64,000 bases of DNA from Nitrospina sp. GTDB taxonomy: Bacteria > Nitrospinota > Nitrospinia > Nitrospinales > Nitrospinaceae. Shown in pieces: positions 14,615 through 22,222 of the stretch. The notes below the pieces were generated by a model. That model made no database searches. It had not been told where the DNA came from and saw nothing but the letters and a program-made list of their open reading frames with translations. The stretch lies in NCBI GenBank assembly GCA_020430445.1, contig JAGQJZ010000003.1, positions 1-64,000 of the forward strand. The letters run 5' to 3'. The stretch's first letter is position 1. The number at the start of each line of letters is the position of its first letter. A program made the translations under genes and the position numbers.

Positions 14615-15607
14615 CTATTGTTCTTTCCTGAAGACCGCGGTGTTTTCCTTGCCTTCCACAACCAGATGGCCGATCGCGCCTTTTGCCACCCGGAAAATAC
14701 TGTGGTCGACCAGAACGTAGGTCCCCGGGTTTTCGACCTTGAACTCGACGATGGTCGCTCCGGCGGAGGGGACCAGGGTGGTCTGGATGTTGTGGTTGAC
14801 CAGACCGTTGATCCCACCTTCATGATAGACGTTGTCGAAGATTTCTCCAATGATGTGGAAGGACGAAATGCCGTTGGGGCCGATGTTGCCGAAATAAATC
14901 CGGATGGTCTCACCCGCGTTGGCTTTCAGGGCGTTTTTCCCAAGCAGGCCGCCTTCGCGGCCGTTGAAAACGACGTGGGTGGGGTGTTCGTCCAGACCTT
15001 TGGAAATATCGAACGTGGCGATTCCATCCTCGGGGTCCGATGTGAAAAATTCACTTTCGAAAACATAAAACTCCCGGTCCACTTTGGGCAACCCGCCTTC
15101 GGGCTCGACCAGAATCAGGCCGTACATTCCATTGGCAATGTGATCGACGATGGAGCCGGCGGCGCAATGGTAAATGTACAGGCCGGGGTTCAGGGCTTTC
15201 CAGATGAACACCTTGGATTCTCCGGGGCTCACCGTGTTGACCGCGGCCCCGCCGCCGGGTCCGTTGACGGCGTGGATATCAATATTGTGTTGCTGGACGT
15301 TCTCCTTGGCGTTCGACAGGTGGAAGCGGACTTCGTCGCCTGCGCGGACGCGGGCCATGGGGCCGGGCACTGTGCCGTTGAAGCTCCAGAATTCATACTG
15401 CACGCCTTCTGCAAGGGGGCCTTTGTATTCCTTTGCTTCAAAACGAACGTCAATGGTCTGGGCTTTACGCTTGCCAACGGCCGGGGGAACCGCAGGCGCG
15501 TGGGTCAACTCTGCCCGGCTGGCTGCAAGCGAGGGAGTGGCGGCGCTGAAGATCAAGAACGCAGAGAGAATAAAGAGATTAAATTTAAAAATAGGATGTG
15601 TTTTCAT
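14615..15607 (-). CDS. nirK: copper-containing nitrite reductase, AniA-like
   Basis: This 330-residue periplasmic enzyme reduces nitrite to nitric oxide. The start at 15607 follows GGGGAAAG and gives a clean signal peptide ending near SLAAS. It has two cupredoxin domains. Type 1 copper ligands are His107, Cys148, His156 and Met161. Type 2 copper ligands are His112, His147 and His302. Catalytic Asp110 and His251 are present. The short Cys-to-His loop and the HIANGMYGLILVEPEGGLP stretch are typical of the AniA class. The cluster also carries NO-handling genes (ric and truncated haemoglobin upstream, a globin sensor downstream). Confidence 0.95.
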   Translation of the reverse strand: MKTHPIFKFNLFILSAFLIFSAATPSLAASRAELTHAPAVPPAVGKRKAQTIDVRFEAKEYKGPLAEGVQYEFWSFNGTVPGPMARVRAGDEVRFHLSNAKENVQQHNIDIHAVNGPGGGAAVNTVSPGESKVFIWKALNPGLYIYHCAAGSIVDHIANGMYGLILVEPEGGLPKVDREFYVFESEFFTSDPEDGIATFDISKGLDEHPTHVVFNGREGGLLGKNALKANAGETIRIYFGNIGPNGISSFHIIGEIFDNVYHEGGINGLVNHNIQTTLVPSAGATIVEFKVENPGTYVLVDHSIFRVAKGAIGHLVVEGKENTAVFRKEQ

Positions 15608-15731
15608 TTTAAGCTTTCCCCAATTGAATAAATTTATAATAAAAATTATGAATCCTCCAGTGGCTGATTTTATTTGCCGCTCGGAAAAACAATCACGGAT
15701 CAATCTGCCGCACGCCGGCTTAAGAGCCAGA

Positions 15732-16454
15732 TCAAAGCGCTTCCGCGCGTTCAAGGACTTGTGGAAACAGCAGATTGTTTTCCTTGTGAACGTGCAGGTG
15801 CGTGTCGACTTCGACTTGCTTCAACAGGCGATACAGGTGTTTGAAGGTTTCGCATGCATCCTCCGGAGGTTGGTATCCATTTGTGAGTTCGTTGATTTTG
15901 TGCAACAGGTTGCCCGCCCGCTCGTGTTCCATGAGCATCACGCGAATCGGGTTTGCCACCGAACCGCAGTGAGCCATTCCGCCGGACATGGATTTCTCCA
16001 TATTCTTGATCATGGGAAAGAGGATTTGCTCTTCTTTCATCATGTGAGGTTTCAGGTCCTGGATCAGGTAATAAACCGCTTCCTGCAACTCTGCGAGCCA
16101 CGGGTGATTGGCCGCATGCGCCTTGACCACTTTTTCGGTGATTTCAGTGAGTTCCGGGAACACCGATTCCAGGTACTGGTGGTGCGTGGTGACGATGTGG
16201 TCGATCAGCCCCGAGGGTTCGAGATCGGTCCAGTTTTCTTCAGGTTCCGCAGCGGCAGGGGAGGGCGCCTGGTTGAGCTGTTCCAGGATCGCGCCGGGGG
16301 TCAACCCGAGTTCTTCGCATGCCGCGCCGAGCGTTTTTTCTCCACCGCAGCAAAAGTCAATTTTGTGGTGGGCGAATACTTCAATGGCGATGACGGGATT
16401 GTGGTTTACGAAATCCCGCACCGGGCTTTGGGTGTTCAGGTCTGGAAAGTTCAT
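15732..16454 (-). CDS. ric: iron-sulfur cluster repair di-iron protein (RIC/ScdA/YtfE)
   Basis: The 240-residue protein has an N-terminal ScdA domain with the hallmark IDFCCGG (Cys35-Cys36). A hemerythrin-like four-helix domain (residues 80-235) follows, with spaced histidines (DHIVTTHHQYL, DLKPHMMKEEQILFP, LMEHERAG, HLHVHKENNLLFP) that bind a di-iron centre. RIC proteins restore Fe-S clusters damaged by NO and oxidants in the cytoplasm. It starts 21 bases after the truncated haemoglobin gene, so the two form an operon. A 124-base A+T-rich gap separates it from nirK, which may have its own promoter as well. Confidence 0.93.
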   Translation of the reverse strand: MNFPDLNTQSPVRDFVNHNPVIAIEVFAHHKIDFCCGGEKTLGAACEELGLTPGAILEQLNQAPSPAAAEPEENWTDLEPSGLIDHIVTTHHQYLESVFPELTEITEKVVKAHAANHPWLAELQEAVYYLIQDLKPHMMKEEQILFPMIKNMEKSMSGGMAHCGSVANPIRVMLMEHERAGNLLHKINELTNGYQPPEDACETFKHLYRLLKQVEVDTHLHVHKENNLLFPQVLERAEAL

Positions 16455-16475
16455 GGTAACCTCCTCAACGATGCG

Positions 16476-16913
16476 TTAGATATGATGACGCGAATAATGG
16501 GGGATGGCGTGCCTGGCATTTTCAGGCTCGATCCCCATCCGCAATTGAAATGTGCCCGCAATGTTTCGGGCCAGTTGCTTGGACTTTTCCGCAATGGGCC
16601 CTTCGAAATGTTCGTTGACCGTATGGGTGAACAATCGCACCCAGCTTTCAAAATGCCTTTTCTCCAAAGGCAGTGGCAGGTGCTTTGCAAACGGATTGCC
16701 GTCATAGGTCCCCGTTCCAAAAAGAAGCCGTTCCCAGAAGCGATACATAATGGGAAGGTGTGTTTGCCAGTCCCGTATATGCTCCTCGAAAATGGGAGCG
16801 AGATCGGAGTCCTGCCGGACCTTTTCATAAAAGGAATCCACCAGAATCCGGATATGCCCTTGTGAGCTGATGTCGTTTCCCTCGTGGGGAGTGTTTGCGT
16901 TTGCGGGTTTCAT
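16476..16913 (-). CDS. group III truncated haemoglobin
   Basis: The 145-residue globin has the 2/2 fold pattern of group III truncated haemoglobins: FYEKVRQDSDLAPIFE at the N-terminus, HLPIMYRFWERLLFG in the B-E region, and RHFESWVRLF around the proximal histidine. Members of this group are induced by nitrosative stress in other bacteria and bind O2 or NO. The ATG at 16913 is chosen over a GTG two codons upstream. It is the first gene of the minus-strand NO/nitrite cluster and lies directly under the Rrf2-type operators. Confidence 0.92.
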   Translation of the reverse strand: MKPANANTPHEGNDISSQGHIRILVDSFYEKVRQDSDLAPIFEEHIRDWQTHLPIMYRFWERLLFGTGTYDGNPFAKHLPLPLEKRHFESWVRLFTHTVNEHFEGPIAEKSKQLARNIAGTFQLRMGIEPENARHAIPHYSRHHI

Positions 16914-16925
16914 GAGCACCTGACC

Positions 16926-17072: not shown

Positions 17073-17495
17073 ATGATATCTCAAACCGCTGAATACGCTT
17101 TAAGGGCCGTGGTTGCCCTGGCCCAGCATCCGGACAACCCCCTGACCACCGCTGAAATTGCGCAGGCGACCAAGGTGCCGGAATTCTATCTTTCAAAGGT
17201 ATTGCACGGCCTGGCCAAAGGGGAGATTGTCGTTTCCAAAAGGGGGGTCAACGGGGGCTACAGTTTGAGCCGCCCGGGCGACCAGATCAAATTGCTCGAC
17301 ATCATCAATGCCGTGGACCCGATAAAGCTGATAAAAAGCTGTCCTTTGAAGTTGAAAACCCACTCCAAAAATCTCTGCGCCCTGCACAAAAGAATCAATC
17401 AATCCATTCTATTGATGGAAGAGGTTTTCCGCGGAGCCACGATCCAGATGATTCTGGAAGAGCCTTCCCAAAGCATCCCCCTGTGTGAATCCTAG
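17073..17495 (+). CDS. Rrf2-family transcriptional regulator (NsrR-like)
   Basis: The 140-residue repressor has the Rrf2 winged helix (residues 1-75; TTAEIAQATKVPEFYLSKVLHGLAKGEIV, then RGVNGGYSL). Cys90 and Cys102 line up with two of the three cluster cysteines of NsrR/IscR. The middle cysteine is missing, with His97 and His105 nearby as possible substitutes. A third Cys (138) is at the tail. It is divergent from the haemoglobin-ric-nirK cluster, and two dyads lie between them. It probably senses NO or redox state through an Fe-S cluster and represses both directions. Confidence 0.88.
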   Translation: MISQTAEYALRAVVALAQHPDNPLTTAEIAQATKVPEFYLSKVLHGLAKGEIVVSKRGVNGGYSLSRPGDQIKLLDIINAVDPIKLIKSCPLKLKTHSKNLCALHKRINQSILLMEEVFRGATIQMILEEPSQSIPLCES

Positions 17496-17528: not shown

Positions 17529-18317
17529 TCATGAAATCATCACGCTGCGCATGGAGATTCCCTGGTGCGCGATGCCTTCAACGGGAAAGGTGACGCGCTC
17601 CTCTTCTCTCTGCAACGCCATGATGTAGAGCAGGGGCAGGAAATGCTCCGGCGTGGGGACGGAGAGGCGCGCGATTTCTCCCAGCGATTCATAGTCCAGA
17701 ATCTTCTGATGATCTCCCTCCAGTAAACACTGCTTCACTGCTTCGTCGAATTCCACCGCCCAATCGGCCGGTTCCGCTTCGGCGGCCGGGTCGAGGCGTC
17801 CGAGATTGTGCACGATGTTGCCGCTGCCCAGTATGAGAACGCCTTCGTCCCTCAACCAGCGGAGTTCCTGTCCGATGGCGAAATGCGTTTTGGGGGGCAG
17901 GCCGCCGTCCAGGCTGAACTGCAGCACGGGGATGTCGGCCGCAGGGTACATGGGGGCCAGGACGCCCCAGGTGCCGTGGTCCAGCCCCCGGTCGAACTCA
18001 AGGTCAATCCGGGTGAGCCGGGTTTGGGACTGGATCCGCTTGGCGAGCGCGGGAGACCCCGGAGCCGGGTATTGAATGTCGTACAGGGCCTGCGGGAAAT
18101 TCGCGAAATCGTGCACGGTGCGAGGCATCTCCATCGCCGTGACGCGGGTGCCGGCGGTCACCCAGTGCGCGGACACGCACAGGATGGCCCTGGGCCTGGG
18201 GAGGCACCGGCCCAGAATTTTCCAACTGCTGGAAAACCGGTTGTGCTCGATGACGTTCATGGGGCTGCCGTGTCCGAGAAACAGGGCGGGCATGGGTTTA
18301 TTGTCTGCGGTGTTCAT
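17529..18317 (-). CDS. ygiD: DODA-type extradiol aromatic ring-opening dioxygenase
   Basis: This 262-residue class III extradiol enzyme matches 4,5-DOPA dioxygenase (LigB superfamily). The metal-binding and catalytic histidines are in FLGHGSPMN, SAHWVT, LDHGTWG and GSGNIVHNL. It would open a catechol-type ring in the cytoplasm using O2. It is the last gene of a four-gene minus-strand operon and starts 50 bases after the intradiol dioxygenase stop. The natural substrate cannot be read from the sequence. Catechols or quinol breakdown products are likely given the neighbours. Confidence 0.88.
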   Translation of the reverse strand: MNTADNKPMPALFLGHGSPMNVIEHNRFSSSWKILGRCLPRPRAILCVSAHWVTAGTRVTAMEMPRTVHDFANFPQALYDIQYPAPGSPALAKRIQSQTRLTRIDLEFDRGLDHGTWGVLAPMYPAADIPVLQFSLDGGLPPKTHFAIGQELRWLRDEGVLILGSGNIVHNLGRLDPAAEAEPADWAVEFDEAVKQCLLEGDHQKILDYESLGEIARLSVPTPEHFLPLLYIMALQREEERVTFPVEGIAHQGISMRSVMIS

Positions 18318-18367: not shown

Positions 18368-19216
18368 TTACAGGGTGAGAACGAAATCGTAATGCCCGAC
18401 CAGACCGTCGGTTATTGTTCCGGAAGGATCGGGCCGGTATTCCACGATGAGGCCTTCCTGTTCTTTTTCCGGAATCCGTTCGCTCCTTAAAATGCCGTCG
18501 CGGGCATTCAACTGTTGAATGAACTCGTTGTGCGCGATGTGCTCGCCTTTGAAATAAAGCTGGGTCACCAGTTGGGGAAGCCCCGGCGCGCTGATCATGA
18601 AATGCAGGTGTGGCGGGCGGTACCAGCCGTTGCCCAGGCTGGGCCGGTCTTCCCCTCCTTCGTTGCCGATACGCACGGGGTAGAACCCGGGGACGATGGT
18701 TTTGAACCTGTAATTCCCCTGGGCGTCGGTGATGCTCCGGCCCCAGTACTGGAAATGCGGGTCGTGTTCGCGGTCGATCCATTCTCCGGTGACGGGGTGC
18801 TGGAAACGGGGCGTTTCCGTGTCGCCGCGGTGGTTGTAGCGCCCGCTGGCCGAGGCGTTCCACATGATGAGCACCGCCCCGGGCAGCGGCACCAGTTGGT
18901 CTCCCCTGCGGTTGAGCACCTGGCCCTGGATATAGACGGTCTGTCCCCTGGCCGACTCGGCGTGGCCCTGGATCCGGGTGAGGTCGCTGTCGTTGGCTTC
19001 GCTGATGGGCAGCCGGAAGTCCAGGTTCTCGCGCACCTCATGCACCGGGTCTCCATCGTCCGGGAAAAACGGGCCGAGGGTTTGCCGGGGGGTGGGAGAT
19101 TTCAGCGTGCGTCCGAAAGCGGAACCGGTGAACCAGGTGCTTGCAATCGTTCCCAGGGCTCCCGCTCCGGTCAGGATGAAGTGACGCCGCGATACCGTTT
19201 CTTTTGTCTCGTTCAT
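18368..19216 (-). CDS. Tat-exported intradiol ring-cleavage dioxygenase
   Basis: The 282-residue protein starts at the ATG preceded by AAAGGA. It carries a twin-arginine signal (SRRHFILTGAGALG), so it is folded before export. The catalytic Fe(III) ligands of the intradiol family are recognisable: Tyr in GRYNHRGD, Tyr in the GNGWYRPPHLHF region, and the HLH pair. Such enzymes split catechols between the hydroxyls. Export to the periplasm is unusual for a catabolic dioxygenase and suggests detoxification or an extracellular substrate. It sits between the cytochrome b561 and extradiol dioxygenase genes. Confidence 0.85.
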   Translation of the reverse strand: MNETKETVSRRHFILTGAGALGTIASTWFTGSAFGRTLKSPTPRQTLGPFFPDDGDPVHEVRENLDFRLPISEANDSDLTRIQGHAESARGQTVYIQGQVLNRRGDQLVPLPGAVLIMWNASASGRYNHRGDTETPRFQHPVTGEWIDREHDPHFQYWGRSITDAQGNYRFKTIVPGFYPVRIGNEGGEDRPSLGNGWYRPPHLHFMISAPGLPQLVTQLYFKGEHIAHNEFIQQLNARDGILRSERIPEKEQEGLIVEYRPDPSGTITDGLVGHYDFVLTL

Positions 19217-19270: not shown

Positions 19271-19846
19271 TTATTTTGAAGCTGCCGGCGGCTCGTTTTT
19301 GGTGACGGAGCACATCCTGCCGAGGAAGTTTTCCCGCGAATCAAAATGCCGTCTCAGGATCAGGGAAACATGGGCCGTCACGAAAGCCACGATGATGAAC
19401 GCCGTGATGCGGTGCGCGTATTTCCCGATCTCATGCAGGACTGCGCTCTTGCCGATCAGGTCCGGCACTTCGAACAATCCGAAGAATTTGAAACCGTGTC
19501 CACCGGCCATGGAGTACACATAGCCGAACAGGGGCATCAGGAGCATCACCGCGTACAGGCCGGTTTCCAGGAACTTGAACGCCTTCTTTTCAAAAGCGGA
19601 CATGGAGTCGGGCCAGGGCGGCAGCGGATTCCGCTTGCGCCACGCCAGCCGGGCGAGGGCGAGAAAAAACAGCGTGACGCCCATCGACTTGTGCGTCACA
19701 AACAAGGCGGCGGGATAATAGTCCTTGCTCGCCACGCCGTTCATGACAATTGCGATCACGAACTGGAACAGGAAGAGGGTGAAAATGGTCCAGTGAAATC
19801 CCCGGGCAATGCTGCCGTACCGATGGTTCGAATCCGTCGCTTCCAT
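19271..19846 (-). CDS. cytochrome b561-type membrane protein
   Basis: This 191-residue protein has four transmembrane helices and the paired histidines of the bacterial cytochrome b561 family (ARGFHWTIF, FVTHKSMG, VLHEIGKYAHR, VTAHVSLI), able to hold two b haems. These proteins pass electrons between quinol and a periplasmic or membrane partner. The ATG at 19846 is preceded by GAGGAAA. It lies 44 bases after doxX and 54 before the intradiol dioxygenase gene, consistent with one transcript. Confidence 0.88.
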   Translation of the reverse strand: MEATDSNHRYGSIARGFHWTIFTLFLFQFVIAIVMNGVASKDYYPAALFVTHKSMGVTLFFLALARLAWRKRNPLPPWPDSMSAFEKKAFKFLETGLYAVMLLMPLFGYVYSMAGGHGFKFFGLFEVPDLIGKSAVLHEIGKYAHRITAFIIVAFVTAHVSLILRRHFDSRENFLGRMCSVTKNEPPAASK

Positions 19847-19890
19847 AACAAGTTTCCTCTGGCTGGAGTTGAGAGTTTGGGTTGAATGCA

Positions 19891-20397
19891 TCAATGAGCG
19901 AACAGCGCCGGTTTCGTTGCGGAGAGGCTGGTGTCGCGTTTTCCGGGAAGCCGCTCCGCGACCCAGCGGTCGAGGGAGAAGCGTCCGCCGCCGGAAATGG
20001 CCAGGGCCACGGCCATGCCGATGGCGAGCAGGTGGAATTCAAACCCTTCTCCCGCCTGTTGTCCCGACCAGTTCATGAAAAACCCGTTGCTCGAGTGCGC
20101 CGTGATCGCCGCACCGGCCATGATGGCGCCGATGCCGAAGGCGCTCAGGCGGGTGAACAAACCGGCGATCAGCCCCAGGCTTCCGAGAAATTCTCCGGCG
20201 ATCACCAGCAGGGCGACCACCATCGGCAGTCCCATCTTTTGGGTCAGAAATCCCAGCGTGCCTTCGAGCCCGTGTCCGCCAAACCAGCCGAGGACTTTTT
20301 GCGCGCCGTGGGGAAAAATCACCAGCCCCAGCATGACGCGCAGGGCCAGAGGTGAATAGCCGTTTCCGGTTCGGAATATTTTATGAATCCAGTCCAT
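19891..20397 (-). CDS. DoxX family membrane protein
   Basis: This 168-residue protein has four transmembrane helices with DoxX family features (ALRVMLGLVIFPHGAQKVLGWFGG, GEFLGSLGLIAGLFTRLSA, GEGFEFHLLAIGMAVAL). DoxX relatives in other bacteria take part in thiosulfate-quinone oxidation or in catechol/quinone detoxification beside ring-cleaving dioxygenases (the CatD and MhqP cases in Bacillus). The latter fits here. It is the first gene of the operon, with GGAGG seven bases before the ATG and a sigma-54 promoter about 50 bases upstream. Confidence 0.88.
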   Translation of the reverse strand: MDWIHKIFRTGNGYSPLALRVMLGLVIFPHGAQKVLGWFGGHGLEGTLGFLTQKMGLPMVVALLVIAGEFLGSLGLIAGLFTRLSAFGIGAIMAGAAITAHSSNGFFMNWSGQQAGEGFEFHLLAIGMAVALAISGGGRFSLDRWVAERLPGKRDTSLSATKPALFAH

Positions 20398-20446: not shown

Positions 20447-20462
20447 AGCAAGGCGCGTGCCA
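20447..20462 (-). promoter_or_regulatory. sigma-54 promoter of the doxX operon
   Basis: On the minus strand the sequence is TGGCACG-CGCC-TTGCT, an exact match to the -24/-12 consensus TGGCACG-N4-TTGCW. Transcription would start near 20436, leaving a leader of about 40 bases with a GGAGG site. The adjacent divergent gene encodes a sigma-54 activator. Confidence 0.9.
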
Positions 20463-20553
20463 AAAGCGCGATTTTCAAATAAACTATTGTTTTTATTGAT
20501 ACTTATTTAGATGGAGTGGTTTTGTGTAATATTTGTTTTCAGTTTTAAATTTT

Positions 20554-20583
20554 AATTCCGTTGTTATGGAACGGAATTCCGTT
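20554..20583. promoter_or_regulatory. triple half-site, probable upstream activator sequence
   Basis: The nonamer AATTCCGTT occurs at 20554-20562 and 20575-20583, with its inverse AACGGAATT at 20570-20578. The last two overlap to make a perfect 14-bp palindrome. The centre is about 130 bases upstream of the predicted doxX start, the usual distance for a sigma-54 activator. The sites also overlap the activator's own promoter, so autoregulation is likely. Confidence 0.75.
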
Positions 20584-20588
20584 ATAAT
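20561..20588 (+). promoter_or_regulatory. sigma-70 promoter of the activator gene, possibly leaderless
   Basis: TTGTTA (20561-20566) and the exact consensus TATAAT (20583-20588) are 16 bases apart. The predicted start of transcription, near 20595, coincides with the ATG at 20594, and no Shine-Dalgarno sequence is visible. A leaderless messenger is the simplest reading. Confidence 0.65.
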
Positions 20589-20593
20589 GAGAC

Positions 20594-22222
20594 ATGAACG
20601 ATTCCAGTCATCCGGCCCAGGTCATCGCTAAAATGAGGAACCTCCTTTTGGCCATGCCCCAGGAGAGGAGCGTGACCTCCCTGCTCGATATGGTGGTGCG
20701 TCAGTATGCCGAGGACACGTCCCTGGCGCTCAGCCGAATCTGGCTCATCCGCCCGGGAGACCAGTGCCAGACCTGCAAATTGAGGGACGAGTGCCTGGAC
20801 CGGACCCGTTGTCTGCACCGGGTGGCCGAGGCTTACAGCGAGGGAGCCGAGCCGGAGCAAGGCGAGGGCGCGGACGATTTCGCCCGGGTTCCACTGGGGA
20901 CCGGCAAGATTGGCCGCTGTGCGGTCACGGGAGAGACGGCGGATTTGTCCTCCGCGCAAGACCTCGAGTTTTCTGTCTCCCCAACCTGGGCGCTCCGGAT
21001 CAAGGCGCTGGGCCTGGCGGTGGTGCCCATCGTGTTTCAGGGCAGGGTACTGGGGGTGAACAGTTTTGTCCCCTGGAAAGAAGTGGACATGGAAGGCGAG
21101 GGGCTTTTCTGGGGCCGGCTGGTGGCGGATCACCTTGCCGTCTCCATCGCCAATGCCGAGGCGTTCGAAAAAATTGAAGAACTGAACCGGCAACTGGCGG
21201 AAGACAATGAAATCCTGAACCATGAACTGGAGGAGGCCACCGCCTACGGCGAACTCCTGGGGAAAAGCCCGCCTTTGAAGACGGTGGCCCGGCAGATTGA
21301 GATGGTGGCGGGAACGGATGCCAGCGTTCTGATCACCGGAGAATCTGGAACGGGCAAGGAACTGGTCGCCCGTGAAATCCACAACCGGAGTGCGCGGTCG
21401 AACAGGCCGTTCATCAAAGTCAATTGCGCCGCGATTCCGAGAGACCTGTATGAAAGTGAATTTTTCGGGCACATCAAGGGGTCTTTCACGGGAGCGGTTC
21501 AGGACAGGAAAGGACGTTTTGAACTGGCGGATGGAGGGACGCTGTTTCTCGACGAGGTGGGTGAGATTCCGCTGGATGTGCAGAGCAAGCTGTTGCGCGT
21601 CGTGCAGGAGGGCGAGTACGAGCGCATTGGCGATGAACGCACCCGCGCCACCGATGTTCGCATTCTTGCCGCCACCAATCGCGATCTCAAACGGGAAATC
21701 AAAAACGGAATTTTCCGCGAGGACCTGTTTTACCGGTTGAATGTTTTCCCGGTCGAACTTCCTCCGTTAAAGGAACGTAAAGAGGATATCCCCCTCCTGG
21801 TCAATCATTTCCTGAACCTGACATCGCGAAAATTCAACAAACCGGTCAGGCCGCTGTCGGCGGCCAGGATGTCGGCGCTGCAAAAATACGATTGGCCGGG
21901 GAACATCCGGGAGTTGCAAAATTTAATTGAACGTGCGGTGATCCTTTGCAAGGACGGCAAGGTGAACATCGAAATTCCAAAACCGCATGATGAGGACGCG
22001 TTCGCAGGGGAGGGTCCCGCTGCCGGCATCCCCGGCGACATGGTGATTCCGGAAGAGGAAATGAAGCGCCGGGAAAAAGAGAATATGCTGCGTGCCCTGA
22101 ACCAGTGCGGCGGAAAAATTTATGGAGAGGGTGGGGCGGCGAAACTGTTGGGGATCAAACCGACCACTCTCACCACACGCATCCGGGCCATGGGCGTAAA
22201 GAAAAGGTTCTTTCCGGAATAA
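20594..22222 (+). CDS. sigma-54-dependent activator with four-cysteine GAF domain
   Basis: The 542-residue enhancer-binding protein has an N-terminal GAF domain (residues 20-195), a helical linker, an AAA+ domain (235-460; GESGTGKE Walker [10 protein letters not shown] Walker B) and a Fis-type helix-turn-helix (500-540). The sigma-54 contact loop reads GSFTGA instead of GAFTGA. The GAF domain holds Cys58, 61, 67 and 73 (CxxC-x5-C-x5-C), which may bind a metal or Fe-S cluster. It is divergent from the doxX operon, whose promoter is sigma-54 type, and probably controls it in response to redox or an aromatic ligand. Confidence 0.93.

Follow-up and report, generated by a model that had tools for sequence, protein, structure and literature searches.

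A predicted sigma-54 switch between a Cys4-GAF activator gene and a doxX-dioxygenase operon in Nitrospina sp., with relatives in other phyla

How is the doxX-dioxygenase operon of Nitrospina sp. controlled, and what signal does its control unit answer? In the window, which is the whole stretch of 64,000 nucleotides analysed here, this operon lies divergent from the gene of a putative sigma-54 activator. A preliminary description of the locus had proposed a complete divergent control unit, with an exact sigma-54 promoter, three half-sites about 130 bases upstream of it and the same sites in the promoter of the activator. That description was right and understated; a cross-phylum operator array, an invariant Cys4 motif and a leaderless-looking mRNA come in addition to it. 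Sigma-54 regulation has been little explored outside Pseudomonadota. This manuscript favors a NorR-like sigma-54 switch whose GAF cysteines sense an oxidant or electrophile, a reading that we consider moderately probable as a whole.

Promoters and operators between the divergent genes

The features of the locus are listed in Table 1. The exact -24/-12 element ahead of the doxX operon was recovered as TGGCACGCGCCTTGC, read from 20462 to 20448, and the 64 kb window contains no second exact match. It has the GG-N10-GC arrangement upstream of the target operon, exact and conserved, and lies 51 bp from the doxX ATG. An exact match alone is weak evidence, because the 3.3 Mb genome contains nine such matches versus five with a reversed-pattern control. 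Thus, we take conservation, and not the exact match itself, to decide whether the element is real. Absence of rpoN had been named as a reason to abandon the proposal; an rpoN gene was found in the genome (G000:C210; PF04552, 206.5 bits), with an open frame of 496 aa that looks intact.

Table 1. Coordinates of the annotated and predicted features at the activator-doxX locus.
Feature	Position	Strand	Evidence or remark
LigB / 4,5-DOPA extradiol dioxygenase family protein, YgiD type	17529..18317	-	NF007914, 327 bits, above the cut-off of 233
Intradiol ring-cleavage dioxygenase	18368..19216	-	PF00775, 1.2e-29; twin-arginine-like N-terminus (SRRHF)
Cytochrome b561 family protein	19271..19855	-	PF01292, 2.6e-22
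doxX	19891..20397	-	PF07681, 1.9e-18; SD GGAGG, ATG at 20397
Predicted sigma-54 -24/-12 promoter of the doxX operon, TGGCACGCGCCTTGC	20448..20462	-	Exact match; conserved
Expected operator site 1, TTTGTTTTCAGT	20532..20543	.	Register only, 18 bp upstream of site 2; degenerate, 8/12 by eye; weak
Putative operator site 2	20550..20561	.	In register (21 bp start-to-start); intact in its activator-proximal half AATTCCGT only, half-site exact
Putative operator site 3, perfect 12-bp palindrome ACGGAATTCCGT	20571..20582	.	12/12 versus family consensus ACGRWWWWYCGT
Predicted sigma-70-type promoter of the activator, TTGTTA (20561-20566)-16 bp-TATAAT (20583-20588)	20561..20588	+	Sequence; encloses site 3
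Activator, 542 aa, GAF-AAA+-Fis	20594..22222	+	PF00158, 7.9e-72; PF25601; weak GAF_2 match

Next to the operon, a cluster for NO handling occupies positions 14615-16919. It encodes a NirK-type copper nitrite reductase, the di-iron repair protein RIC/ScdA and a truncated globin, and the gene of an Rrf2 regulator (17073-17495) adjoins it.

Three exact copies of the half-site AATTCCGTT fall within 30 bp, at 20554-20562 (+), 20570-20578 (-) and 20575-20583 (+), and one further copy in the window lies inside the activator gene at 21704. The sigma-54 transcription start is predicted at about 20437, so the half-sites lie approximately 117-146 bp upstream. The sites of the preliminary description were confirmed, with a correction to its division into three units: the half-sites are best read as 1.5 palindromic operators, the complete site 3 (14-bp form AACGGAATTCCGTT, 20570-20583) and the right half of site 2. 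In the window, just one operator is complete and one additional half-site is clear, and related Nitrospinota have better copies of site 1. The 3.3-Mb genome contains the inverted repeat AATTCCGTT-N7-AACGGAATT, of 25 bp, only once, and palindromes of the form ACGRWWWWYCGT number 10 versus 2 in the control. Among these 10 palindromes, a strong sigma-54 promoter in range was found only at the activator-doxX intergenic region, and a wider regulon was not found.

The claim that the same sites sit in the activator's own promoter also held. Site 3 lies inside a sigma-70-type promoter whose TATAAT ends five bases ahead of the activator ATG; because site 3 fills the spacer of this promoter, autorepression of the activator is predicted and appears likely, and conservation supports autoregulation. 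The promoter carries CGTTATAAT or CGTTATGAT in five of the six Nitrospinota with this operon and CGTTATTAT in the sixth. When 55 loci of the activator family were aligned on site 3, site 2 was seen to run straight into a TTG (T 92%, T 70%, G 70%), and site 3 was followed, with a 16-bp spacing, by an AT-rich hexamer resembling a -10. In addition, an SD-like 4-mer precedes only 5 of 81 activator starts versus 25 of 27 divergent CMD starts. Since the motif is rare at the former and common at the latter, the activator mRNA looks leaderless, with a start predicted about at the ATG.

Conservation in Nitrospinota and across phyla

In the window and in L004, L148, L149, L150 and L151, six Nitrospinota genomes in all, the activator is divergent from doxX-intradiol dioxygenase-(cytochrome b561)-LigB. 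Loss of the half-sites in relatives with this operon would have counted against the preliminary description, and the sites are kept in all six. The intergenic regions of these genomes vary widely, yet ACG-N6-CGT and the adjoining TATAAT-like -10 are retained. The ACG and CGT of site 3 (CGTTATAAT/ACG...CGT) are in the same position in 6/6, as is the TTGGC...TTGCT sigma-54 promoter. The five full-length Nitrospinota activators of the doxX operon form one clade with full support; the activator of L151 is cut by a contig end and was left out of the tree. An additional exported-looking protein of ~200 aa is encoded first in the operon in L148 (6066-6698), L149 (6317-6934) and L151 (976-1581), and is absent from the operon of the window. 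No Pfam match was obtained for the L148 copy of this protein (L084:676-1308).

The wider activator family was represented by the best 80 loci by similarity from a protein scan of bacterial genomes, in which related rows are not independent of one another. Planctomycetota (40) and Nitrospirota (13) account for most of the loci; the others belong to Verrucomicrobiota, Myxococcota, Nitrospinota and, as single members, to other phyla. These assignments were taken from record titles, and many of the records are MAGs.

Several observations suggest that the arrangement in the window is shared by this family. First, a palindrome close to ACGAAATTTCGT is found upstream of the activator start at least once in 72 of 81 loci, at least twice in 63 and at least three times in 40, and the 175 sites compare with 11 expected from dinucleotide shuffles. 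Secondly, the operators form a trio at about -64, -46 and -25 from the activator start, with start-to-start spacings of 17-18, 21 and 38-39 bp across the family. Site 3 and the half site 2 of the window are in register with this array, and by sequence and register the half-sites of the window evidently belong to it. Third, a divergent -24/-12 element was located between -150 and -120 in 68 of the 80 loci, mostly at -135 to -130, versus one on the other strand and about 0.7 in shuffles. Judged from these counts, array and sigma-54 promoter travel together with the activator family across many phyla. The conservation of promoter, sites and activator thus supports the complete divergent control unit with a cognate activator that had been proposed. 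In three verrucomicrobial loci (L047, L050 and L068), the CMD gene lies downstream on the same strand, and these loci are without the standard divergent sigma-54 promoter.

The GAF cysteines and the candidate signals

The activator consists of a GAF domain (about residues 15-185), an AAA+ sigma-54 activator domain (222-460) and a Fis-type HTH at the C-terminus, which aligns with that of FhlA. Its GAFTGA-type loop reads GSFTGA, a variant listed among those compatible with activation (PMC4641369). The AlphaFold model of the N-terminal domain has a GAF fold (pLDDT 92), and Foldseek matched this domain to GAF domains, cAMP/cGMP GAFs among them. Among solved structures, none was close to the domain by sequence (best E 0.018), and a search for homologs of the sensor domain on plasmids found none.

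The GAF domain contains the motif C58-x2-C61-x5-C67-x5-C73. C58, C67 and C73 are present in 82/82 activators and C61 in 80/82, in loci collected with six peptide patterns, of which one covered two of the four cysteines and the other five none; most loci diverge in sequence from the cysteine-covering pattern. The hairpin that carries the motif connects two strands (residues 54-72), and the last Cys is already where the second of these begins. The spacing C-x2-C-x5-C is found in the [4Fe-4S] proteins FNR and WhiB, which is a lead only. The four cysteines probably ligate an Fe-S cluster or other metal; against a sensory role, such a hairpin can be structural, with Zn. In the Nitrospinota loci L135, L142, L144 and L145, the Cys4-GAF module is fused to a PP2C/SpoIIE-type phosphatase-like domain, recognized by eye. 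Because of these fusions, the Cys-GAF appears to behave as a portable sensor.

Outside the DoxX clade, the first divergent gene mostly encodes a CMD/AhpD protein; 51 loci have such a gene nearby, nearly all as the first divergent gene. Other divergent genes encode thioredoxin, DUF417, DUF1348, isochorismatase, pyridine nucleotide-disulphide oxidoreductase, nitroreductase, SDR and glyoxalase. Some do not point to oxidants, namely those for sigma-70-like factors, an antiporter subunit and an efflux adaptor, and this diversity of targets counts against the favored reading. A sigma-70-type factor with regions 2 and 4 is the divergent product in the planctomycete loci L048 and L069, which hints at a regulatory cascade. 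The AhpD/CMD proteins RclX/RcsA are needed by P. aeruginosa against HOCl/HOSCN (PMC7950407, PMC9751292). An oxidant or electrophile signal is proposed mainly because the output genes include the CMD family of RclX/RcsA, and in addition because of the cysteines.

By analogy with NorR, the proposed switch would work as follows. In the intergenic region, the activator would occupy an array of as many as three palindromic operators. There, it would block the sigma-70-type promoter of its own gene at the spacer and the -35 region, so that less of its mRNA is made, and would also serve as an enhancer scaffold from which the AAA+ ring remodels the sigma-54 polymerase at the -24/-12 element ~130 bp off. 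The sigma-54 promoter so activated would switch on doxX-cytochrome b561-intradiol dioxygenase-LigB. The GAF domain would keep the AAA+ ring off in the absence of signal, and an oxidant or electrophile (a quinone, or reactive oxygen or chlorine species) would alter the Cys4 hairpin and free the ring. Going by the architecture, operator binding, autorepression, a leaderless mRNA and activation are very likely. Redox or electrophile sensing by the cysteines is the weaker part, suggested by the output genes and the cysteines, and is somewhat more probable than its opposite.

Three other explanations were weighed. The first keeps the same circuit with an aromatic ligand, a catechol-like dioxygenase substrate, in the GAF pocket, so that the cysteines would be structural zinc ligands and the operon a substrate-induced catabolic one. 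Two ring-cleavage dioxygenases are indeed present in the operon and kept in six genomes, and GAF domains often bind small ligands, as the cAMP/cGMP GAFs among the Foldseek matches illustrate. However, the operon is without uptake or downstream catabolic genes, and the family as a whole cannot be answering an aromatic substrate, because the targets in other phyla are mostly CMD/AhpD genes without ring-cleavage enzymes. An aromatic ligand is possible for the Nitrospinota version, whose operon could equally be catabolic, and overall we regard this explanation as unlikely.

The second explanation makes the activator a NorR-type NO sensor and the operon a partner of the neighboring NirK, RIC/ScdA and globin genes that answers NO. 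These genes do adjoin the operon, and NorR likewise is a GAF-AAA+-HTH protein with three enhancer sites. However, membership in NorR was rejected: the activator scores 365.9 versus a cut-off of 476, and its operators are ACGRWWWWYCGT and not the GT-N7-AC of NorR. NO sensing as inferred from the neighborhood was also rejected, as the NO genes are adjacent in none of the five related Nitrospinota loci. The usual targets of the family are, in addition, CMD proteins, and an NO sensor seems quite improbable here. The third explanation, that another regulator binds the palindromes and the -24/-12 match is incidental, can draw on the fact that exact matches are not rare alone, but array and promoter accompany the activator family across many phyla, and the half-site TTTCGT fits the FhlA consensus CATTTCGTACGAAATG while the activator has an FhlA-like HTH, so that we give it hardly any credence.

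The oxidant- or electrophile-sensing switch may then be extended to an apparently undescribed cross-phylum family of sigma-54 activators. These would have a Cys4-GAF metal or Fe-S sensor of oxidants or electrophiles, and a three-operator array would join a leaderless, autorepressed activator gene to a divergent sigma-54 detoxification promoter, with the doxX-dioxygenase operon replacing AhpD/CMD as the output in Nitrospinota. This extended reading is tentative, and we would put it slightly short of an even chance. Descriptions of the activator family with its operator array and Cys4-GAF sensor, of DoxX or CMD with sigma-54 and of HOCl with sigma-54 were not found in the open-licence literature, an absence that carries weak weight. 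Across many phyla, Nitrospinota and planctomycetes among them, one cassette of activator, operators and promoter geometry can be identified from sequence, and the kinds of output gene hint at a shared stress signal. For finding out what is sensed and how, direct and inexpensive handles are available in the operator consensus, the Cys4 motif and the prediction of a leaderless mRNA.

Comparison with known systems

Divergent sigma-54 units that include the gene of their own activator are a well-known kind of system. NorR of E. coli (norR-norVW) is similar in its GAF-AAA+-Fis layout, in the sigma-54 promoter of a detoxification operon and in three intergenic enhancer sites. It differs in its operator, noted above, and in sensing NO at a mononuclear iron. 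We know of no C-x2-C-x5-C-x5-C motif in NorR. The three enhancer sites of NorR are thought to scaffold the oligomer, and the AAA+ domain is restrained by the GAF domain (PMC2941729).

FhlA, the formate hydrogenlyase activator of E. coli, is the best NCBIfam match and the nearest well-known relative, although membership was rejected at 381 bits versus a cut-off of 830. The identity is 41% over 435 aa through the AAA+ domain and HTH (HTH alignment GAA..LG.K.TTL..R....G), and the half-site TTTCGT is shared. However, the operator halves are reversed, TTTCGT-ACGAAA versus ACGAAA-TTTCGT, and the N-terminus and targets differ.

VnfA of Azotobacter is a sigma-54 activator with GAF cysteines and a possible [3Fe-4S] cluster, and it is inhibited by superoxide generators (PMC9542535), which makes it a precedent for the sensor proposed here. 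VnfA/AnfA resemble the present activator (C58/C61/C67/C73) in having conserved GAF cysteines; their targets, in contrast, are nitrogenase genes. The catDE-type quinone/catechol responses of B. subtilis combine a DoxX-family protein and a ring-cleavage dioxygenase in one operon, as here, but are repressor-controlled and not sigma-54 dependent. To our knowledge, RclR of the P. aeruginosa HOCl response is not a sigma-54 activator. The likeness of RclR-RclX/RcsA to the present system, at the family level only, is an AhpD/CMD output gene beside its regulator and protection against HOCl/HOSCN (PMC7950407).
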